Source: Porphyra umbilicalis (taxonomy: Eukaryota > Rhodophyta > Bangiophyceae > Bangiales > Bangiaceae). From it: 53,013 nucleotides of DNA. The stretch lies in assembly GCA_002049455.2 (NCBI GenBank), contig KV919187.1, positions 1 through 53,013 on the forward strand, in the 5' to 3' direction. Numbering within the stretch: the stretch's first letter is position 1; every line of letters begins with the position of its first letter. The notes under the pieces were generated by a model. The model was not told the DNA's origin. It made no database searches and worked only from the letters and a program-made list of their open reading frames with translations. Shown in pieces: positions 47,092 through 48,742 of this stretch. Both the position numbers and the translations under genes were made by a program.

Positions 47092-48742
47092 ATGGGCGCC
47101 GCCTTCTCCTGCTGCCTCGAGGAGCCAACCCCCCCGCGCCCCTGTCGCCCGTCCCCCCCCCTCCCGCCGCACCTCCACCGACGGCGGCGCGCGGCGGACG
47201 CCCGCGCGCCTCGTCGACGAAATCCTCGACGCGGAGCGCGTCGACGCGGCGACGCTCACCTGGGACGGGGGGCCGGGGGGGGGCACGTCGGCGACGCGGT
47301 GTTTCTCGACGTTGGCGTTGGCGGGTCCGAGCCCCGCCGCGTCGTCATTGCGCTGCGGCACGACGTGGCGCCGGTGGCGGCGCACAACTTTCGGGCGTTG
47401 TGTGTGGGCGTGCCGCTGGGCGGGGCCGAGGGGGGGAGGGCCACCGCCCTGCAGGTGGGCAGGAGGAGCATGGACCCGTCGGCGAATGGGAGTGGGGGGG
47501 GGTGGAGCCGCGGGGGAGTGGGGGGTTTGGCGGGCGCACCAGCGGGGCGGTTGGGGGGGCGGGGTACACGGGGAGTTTGATTCACAGGGTCATTTCAGGT
47601 ATGGGTGGGGACGCGGAGGGGAACGGGATGCTCGTGGAGGCGCCCGCGCATGGCTGTTGCCAAGGGCCGCCTCCTCGAACCGGACGTGCTGCCTTTGCCA
47701 AGCGTGGCATTGCGCGGAGGATACTACCTTCGAAAGAAGGTAGCAGGGGGTCGAGCACCGCATGGGCGGGGCAGTCGATGTGCGTAGCAGATGCCGATAC
47801 TGGCAGCTCGACTGACACGAGATGCACTGCTGTTGACGACGGTTGGCTTGAATACTGTGGATGGTTGCCAATGTTGCCACTTGCGCGCTGGTCACGTGGT
47901 GCGCAGGCTTCATGTACGTGTCCTTCAATGCTGGAGACGTTGAGCAATCAGCCTGGTGTGCCACAACAAGAGCAGGGCAGCCATGGTTGGCGTGGCCGAC
48001 AGCTGAAGAGCAGATGCGCGTTGAGCCAACTGGATTTCTTGTTGCTGACCCCTGACCTTCCCCTTCTCACTCCTCAGGGGTAACTTGCTGCCACTTTCCT
48101 CGCTACCCTCCACGCCCCCTGCTTTTCTGCCTACCATATCACCTTCCCCACCCTGCAGGATCCAAGGGGGAGATTATGAAAATGGTGACGGCACTGGCGG
48201 GCGGAGCGTCTTTAAACGCCGGCGCTTCTGCGACGAGGGGTTCGTGCTCAAACACGACGCGGCGGGCGTCGTTGCGTGCGCCAACAGTGGGCCCAACAGC
48301 AACACCAGCCAGTTTTACATCCTGCTGGGGCCCGCCGACTGGCTTGACGGTACGTGCGCATCGGGGAGGGAGCGGCGAGCGGCTTGGCGCGGGTGGGCGT
48401 TTTGCCGCGCGAGAATGCAGCGCAACGCGCAGCGGGCCGGGGTCTGGTGTGACCGCATCGGCGCCAGACACACCGTTCTGACCTCTCGGGGTGTCTGCTC
48501 GCTTCGCCTGGTCCGTGGGCGGCTTCTTTTCTGCGGCCCCCTGGTGCTTGCTCGTCTGGTCCCTTGGTGCTCCACCACCACCGTGGCCCCTCCTTGTGCG
48601 ACCCCCCGTAGACCTCCACGTGGTCTTTGGTCACGTAACGGAGGGGATGGACGTCATCAAGGACTTGGAGCAGTACGCCACCGGGGAGGAGGGGGACGTC
48701 ACCACGCCCATTGAAATCGTGGCCAGCGGCTGTGCGGACTAG
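47092..48742 (+). CDS. Cyclophilin-type peptidyl-prolyl isomerase, with a 7-nt microexon
   Basis: Cis-trans prolyl isomerase. Exons: 47092-47598, 47907-47913, 48159-48349, 48612-48742. The start MGAAFSCCLEE has Gly2 and Cys7/Cys8, a possible myristoylation plus palmitoylation signal. ARLVDEILDAERVDAATLTWDG, split by frame, leads to GDAVFLDVGVGGSEPRRVVIAL, VAPVAAHNFRALCVG, GAGYTGSLIHRVIS, then (via the microexon) [34 protein letters not shown] and DDLHVVFGHVTEGMDVIKDLE: the usual cyclophilin blocks, including HRVI, QGGD and SQFYI. The first exon changes frame at C runs near 47140-47165 and at the G runs near 47270-47280 and 47500. A variable loop before GYTGS is Gly/Arg-rich. The Trp of the cyclosporin-binding site is replaced by the DDLHVVFG region's Leu/His, which suggests weak drug binding (inference). 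Confidence 0.88.
47599..47906 (+). other. Cyclophilin intron 1 (308 nt)
   Basis: Starts GTATGGGTGG and ends GGTGCGCAG; it leaves one base (g) of the Gly codon, so it is phase 1. Confidence 0.85.
47907..47913 (+). other. 7-nt microexon of the cyclophilin gene
   Basis: GCTTCAT is preceded by GCGCAG and followed by GTACGTG. It enters in phase 1 and leaves in phase 2, giving g-GC TTC AT-g = Gly-Phe-Met. This restores the cyclophilin stretch [13 protein letters not shown]. Without it the upstream exon (one base left over) and the downstream exon (two bases needed) cannot be joined in frame. Confidence 0.9.
47914..48158 (+). other. Cyclophilin intron 2 (245 nt)
   Basis: Starts GTACGTGTCC and ends CACCCTGCAG, phase 2. 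A polypyrimidine tract is present upstream of the acceptor. Confidence 0.85.
48350..48611 (+). other. Cyclophilin intron 3 (262 nt)
   Basis: Starts GTACGTGCGC and ends CCCCCCGTAG, phase 1. It joins ...WLD-g to ac-LHVVFG as a GAC codon. Confidence 0.85.

Follow-up and report, generated by a model that had tools for sequence, protein, structure and literature searches.

A putative seven-nucleotide coding exon in a cyclophilin gene of the red alga Porphyra umbilicalis

Cyclophilin and Deg Genes in the Window

The window, a stretch of 53,013 nucleotides from Porphyra umbilicalis (contig KV919187.1), carries a gene for a Deg protease and a gene for a cyclophilin, the features of which are collected in Table 1. 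Each appears to contain an internal exon of fewer than 10 nt; these two exons, 9 nt in the Deg gene and 7 nt in the cyclophilin gene, lie approximately 40.5 kb apart, in agreement with an earlier note on this DNA that had placed two such microexons within 41 kb. Elsewhere in the window, positions 45871-46189 contain a tandem duplication, offset by 169 bases, in which 149 of 150 bases agree.

Table 1. Features of the Deg and cyclophilin genes in the window, together with the microexon of the cyclophilin paralog L002 (numbered within L002)
Feature	Position	Strand	Remarks
Deg exon, aligned part	6588..7172	+	ends TDAAIN
Deg microexon	7369-7377	+	9 nt, CCCGGCAAT, putatively encoding PGN; GTGTAG before, GTACGTT donor after
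Deg exon	7582..8178	+	begins SGGP, includes stop
Cyclophilin exon A	47092..47454	+	begins with the start codon (47092); right end not fixed, between 47399 and 47454 or farther right
Cyclophilin exon B	47543..47598	+	last residues HRVIS, then one base; left end not fixed
Intron left of microexon	47599..47906	+	308 nt, GTATGGGT..GCGCAG; position and phase shared with paralog L002
Cyclophilin microexon	47907..47913	+	7 nt, GCTTCAT, putatively encoding GFM of the active-site motif
Intron right of microexon	47914..48158	+	245 nt, GTACGTGT..CTGCAG; would split the Met codon of the published protein
Cyclophilin exon C	48159..48349	+	begins one base plus IQGGD
Last cyclophilin intron	48350..48611	+	262 nt, GTACGTGC..CCGTAG; removed in P0001
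Cyclophilin exon D	48612..48742	+	stop codon TAG at 48740-48742
Microexon of paralog L002	1341-1354		14 nt, GCTTCATGATTCAG, spells GFMIQ, then GTATGTGG

The hand-joined cyclophilin sequence scores 135.0 bits with the Pfam profile PF00160, for which the cut-off is 21.7, and its product is an ordinary member of this family. For comparison with chain 4tot_A, a mitochondrial cyclophilin, residues were numbered by hand from the first aligned residue (6). Of the cyclophilin active-site residues R55, F60, M61, Q63, N102, F113, Q111, W121, and H126, all are present in the hand-numbered alignment save F113, the position of which is occupied by Tyr in the Porphyra protein. The microexon residues F and M correspond to F60 and M61.

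The frame of exon A encodes the N-terminal half of the cyclophilin (VFLDVGVGG..NFRALCVG) and differs from the frame of exon B across a G-rich stretch (47400-47545). The spliced aligner ended exon A at 47399 and placed an intron at 47400-47542 between the two exons, which is at odds with the residues LCVG directly after 47399, as these resemble cyclophilin sequence; the alternative chosen by eye is CTGCAG/GTGGGC at 47454. An intron whose donor lies at 47455 is as likely, and so is an assembly error of one base within a run of G. Because the A/B boundary is uncertain, the gene is only presumed to be intact upstream.

Seven Bases That Restore Frame and Motif

The earlier note had proposed that seven bases, GCTTCAT, form an exon between exons B and C of the cyclophilin gene. 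Upon re-reading of the window, its coordinates, letters, flanks, phases (1 in, 2 out), and residues all proved correct: GCGCAG stands immediately 5' and GTACGTG immediately 3' of the seven bases, and both flanking introns have canonical GT-AG borders. The donor of the left intron, GTATGG, is weaker than the others. With 7 nt between two introns, the feature is well within the length of a microexon, defined here as an internal coding exon of at most 15 nt. A direct join from 47598 to 48159 gives HRVISG-SKGEIMK, which is out of frame and soon reaches a stop, and an mRNA skipping the microexon would read HRVISGSKGEIMK; the assertion that direct splicing leaves the wrong phase was thus borne out. 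When GCTTCAT is joined in, the phase and the residues between HRVIS and IQGGD are restored as claimed, the active-site motif is complete, and the frame is open to the stop codon.

AG-N7-GT occurs only once in the whole 560-nt gap between exons B and C, namely at GCTTCAT. When the gap was shuffled 20,000 times with dinucleotides preserved, an AG-N7-GT spelling xFM in phase arose in 14 shuffles, and in none when a GTRYGT donor was required as well. The motif itself is nearly fixed: among 240 retrieved cyclophilins, it was readable in 235 (the exceptions being P0001, P0002, P0018, P0054, and P0246), with F in all 235 and M in 233. In the hand-joined protein, removal of the three residues GFM lowers the PF00160 score to 118.8 bits.

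A custom spliced profile aligner that scored donors and acceptors in a simple way was given a cyclophilin profile derived from 118 homologs, P0001 and P0002 excluded, and picked 47907-47913 unaided; its score of 229.0 bits compares with 214.1 bits for the best of 150 gap shuffles, the donor scores favoring GTACGT by construction. Some internal exon of at most 15 nt was also produced in 92 of the 150 shuffles; therefore, the aligner's call alone is unspecific, and the score constitutes the evidence. Across these tests, repair of both frame and motif by the seven-base exon exceeds chance.

A Split Start Codon in the Published Protein

The published P. umbilicalis protein P0001 (BU14_0626s0016) comprises 107 residues, starts with MIQGGD, and is 100% identical to the present reading over its own length. 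The genome, however, has no ATG at this start; because exon C is preceded by an acceptor at 48158, the Met codon of P0001 must form as AT|G over a junction. Three AT|GT sites exist between 46800 and 48118 (47778, 47871, and 47912), of which only the one at the end of the microexon, 47912, has a GTACGT donor. The Met could alternatively derive from 47778, where the donor is GTGCGT, or, less likely, from 47871. Over its 234 open codons, the frame of exon B is devoid of ATG; consequently, once exon B, the microexon, and exon C are joined in an mRNA, its first ATG coincides exactly with the published start. The published model would therefore fit a microexon-containing transcript that was trimmed to its first ATG. 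HRVISGF is absent from the model, so P0001 leaves the left junction of the microexon uncovered.

A second protein, P0002, derived from a 952-base contig, is 83% identical over 107 residues with no break and begins with the same Met as P0001. It crosses the place of the later intron uninterrupted, as a spliced transcript would.

The start of the published model at the split Met also invites the reading that the upstream intron is often kept, with translation from this Met making the 107-residue form a real product; the upstream introns of plant microexons tend to be detained, according to one paper (PMC8831610). A transcript retaining the intron would nevertheless contain an earlier in-frame ATG, at 47861, making the published start unexpected, and the 107-residue product lacks the first third of the domain (its Pfam match begins only at position 50 of 159). 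We therefore consider this reading very improbable.

Regulation of a real microexon is an unlikely alternative of another kind, in which inclusion acts as an on/off switch and skipping leads to a frame shift and early stop. Such a switch is suggested by a length that is not a multiple of three, by the early stop of the skipped mRNA, and by abstracts describing many animal microexons as regulated, whereas no sign of skipping was found here, the Met of P0001 and P0002 needs at least the last two bases of the microexon if the donor at 47913 is used, and FM is near invariant in homologs.

Counterparts in Cyclophilin Paralogs

Spliced alignment of 13 genomic stretches yielded 11 cyclophilin genes above 30 bits, eight of which contain introns; in two of these eight, FM is encoded on a microexon. 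The second case is paralog L002 (on C139), whose left intron matches in residue and phase and has the acceptor GCGCAG; a 14-nt microexon follows, opening with the same seven bases, GCTTCAT. Paralogs L003 and L004 lack the left intron, and their next intron lies within a base of the second intron of L002. Both flanks of a microexon at this position thus have counterparts in other copies.

Among the 120 matches listed (of 8,000 passing), no published P. umbilicalis protein was found for L002. A related protein from Pyropia seriata, P0242, reads FHRVIPGFMLQGGDF, and the Trinity-assembled P0246, which is frame-shifted over the motif stretch, spells a run that, decoded by eye, fits CATGATTCAGG. For conservation of the cyclophilin microexon in relatives, the comparison covers a paralog, which shares the left intron, and P0002, which shares the Met.

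These comparisons bear on the possibility that the seven bases are a chance match within one 560-nt intron, with the gene being a decayed copy or otherwise joined. The frame break in the exon A/B region would suit such a view, yet the shuffle tests, the aligner score, and the sole AG-N7-GT in the gap argue against it, as do a paralog with the same left intron and the unbroken 107 residues of P0002; we regard it as the least probable of the readings weighed here. The preferred reading, in which a 7-nt microexon repairs both frame and motif, draws solid support from the shuffles, from an aligner that found the exon unaided, from paralog L002, and from the split start codon of the published protein. 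The Deg microexon adds to this, as it shows the 7-nt exon to have company in the genome. A cyclophilin-type peptidyl-prolyl isomerase gene thus very probably has a coding microexon at positions 47907-47913, with GT-AG introns of 308 and 245 nt on either side, and we place the probability of this at roughly 0.93.

A Probable Nine-Base Exon in the Deg Gene

The Deg microexon is the sole AG-N9-GT in its gap, the Porphyra intron before it measuring 196 nt. PGN was obtained in none of 20,000 shuffles of this gap. The spliced aligner found the exon unaided, with 888.9 bits compared with 873.1 for the best of 60 shuffles.

The published Porphyra Deg protein P0121 (BU14_0626s0004) reads AINVRASGGP, and its counterpart from Pyropia vietnamensis, P0123, reads AIN-SGGP; PGN is missing from both. 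A related assembled sequence, P0122, reads AINPGNSGGP. The microexon was apparently missed in the P0121 and P0123 proteins. Within the 120 Deg homologs listed, PGN[SA]GG was found in 87, GN[SA]GG in 97, and neither in 23, the last group including P0121, P0123, P0176, P0180, and several other sequences, red algal or unnamed.

Two of these, P0176 and P0180, run from AIN directly into the intron and thereby provide read-through peptides. A pattern of AG-CCN-GGN-AAY-GTRYGT fits each read-through at exactly one place, which would imply introns of 203 and 206 nt, respectively; shuffled peptides fitted the pattern in 32 (P0176) and 23 (P0180) of 20,000 trials. To judge from their lengths and readings, P0122 is probably a transcript, and P0176 and P0180 are probably genomic. 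On the strength of these fits, the Deg microexon and its splice sites seem to be conserved in relatives.

Microexons and GTACGT Donors Across the Genome

The earlier note had further suggested a genome-wide microexon habit in this lineage, to be sought by a motif search. Neither the splice-motif pair, which shows no enrichment, nor the mitochondrial carrier genes, which offer no convincing case, lend support to that suggestion. The search was run with GCGCAG-N(3-15)-GTACGT, which occurs 255 times in the genome, compared with 267 occurrences when read backwards, 236 of GCGCAG and GTACGT at a spacing of 16-28, and 345 of a non-AG version. In the window, the motif is found once, and at least once also in 10 of 100 shuffles. 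With no excess over any of the three whole-genome controls, the motif count was rejected as evidence of a habit. To be informative, such a scan would need protein or RNA evidence for every site, and it would overlook genuine cases if these were modest in number.

Spliced alignment of mitochondrial carriers revealed no convincing internal microexon, with several introns having GTACGT- or GTATGT-type donors; a 2-nt exon call in carrier L072 and introns called in variable loops were left uncounted on account of their weak splice sites. Among ten well-placed internal exons, a count that excludes exon B as uncertain, L004 as a near-copy, and calls at weak sites, three are no longer than 15 nt (7, 9, and 14 nt), the others measuring 58, 88, 102, 110, 191, 200, and 229 nt. 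The 7-nt and 9-nt exons lie in the window that gave rise to the question, and outside it the proportion is one in seven. Separately, profile hits for several protein kinase genes, on C342, C222, C1, C116, C4, C299, and C44, leave gaps of 7-47 residues between adjacent exons, which are candidates for small missing exons.

The hexamer GTACGT, which differs at one position from the usual donor GTAAGT, is found 26 times in the window, compared with 12.05 expected by shuffling. GTACGT is the donor of many placed introns, and its excess is in line with donor use, without being proof of it. It is conceivable, though rather doubtful, that Bangiales, red algae poor in introns and with a reduced complement of spliceosome genes, have retained ancient, constitutively spliced microexons of 7-14 nt within their catalytic motifs. 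Splicing of these would depend mainly on strong donors of the GTACGT type and on removal of the two introns in turn, and would do without auxiliary factors such as PRP40, which in animals is linked to microexons; many of the database proteins from these algae would then have disrupted active sites.

A Possible Route of Splicing

Skipping of the 7-nt microexon would shift the frame and remove two active-site residues, for which reason the mature cyclophilin mRNA would be expected to include it constitutively. Seven bases would presumably be too short for both splice-site complexes at once; the flanking introns may instead be removed one after the other, aided by the strong GTACGT donor, and after the first splice, the seven bases would form the edge of a normal exon. 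The plant microexon paper likewise describes such exons as too small to engage both splice sites at once, with consecutive intron removal being likely and flanking signals strong (PMC8831610).

According to a paper covering red algal spliceosomes, 91 spliceosome genes occur in Bangiophyceae, a count that is less robust there by the paper's own warning; complete genes of P. yezoensis have approximately 0.7 intron each; and G. sulphuraria as well as five further red algal genomes have all five snRNAs, with the exception of U1 in C. merolae (PMC5880011). PRP-40 of worms and PRPF40A of mouse cells are reported to be needed for microexons. In the Porphyra genome, U6 RNA was matched, whereas no match was obtained for U1 RNA, the FF domain, or the U1-70K N-terminal domain, with controls for these three families also silent. 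With the controls silent, no conclusion on a loss of U1 or PRP40 was drawn.

Significance and Comparison with Known Systems

If RNA confirms the exon, coding microexons of fewer than 10 nt would extend to a red algal lineage that is poor in introns and has a reduced spliceosome, and Porphyra might offer a simple system for the minimal splicing needs of a tiny exon. In practical terms, some public proteins are wrong at their active sites, namely the Deg proteins of Porphyra and Pyropia vietnamensis and a cyclophilin cut to 107 residues. No report of microexons in red algae was found in the open-licence literature, as judged by the titles listed; the seven-base exon is thus of a known kind, in a lineage for which no earlier report was found.

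Its closest parallels can be drawn with the plant microexons of 1-15 nt, which are likewise tiny, bounded by GT-AG introns, complete conserved motifs, and are often missed by annotation, with strong flanking splice signals and sequential removal also proposed (PMC8831610). Those exons come from green algae and land plants (337 of 1-15 nt in C. reinhardtii) and are backed by RNA-seq (PMC8831610), whereas the Porphyra case concerns a red alga and draws on genome sequence and protein records. Neuronal microexons of animals, as described in abstracts, similarly fall far below normal exon size and are hard for the splicing machinery, but they are typically regulated in neurons, whereas the Porphyra exon carries no hint of regulation. 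The 4-nt microexon of human MPC1 belongs to another gene and lineage and has minigene evidence behind it; it is likewise constitutive, as the Porphyra exon would be, and its length, too, is not a multiple of three (PMC9929638).
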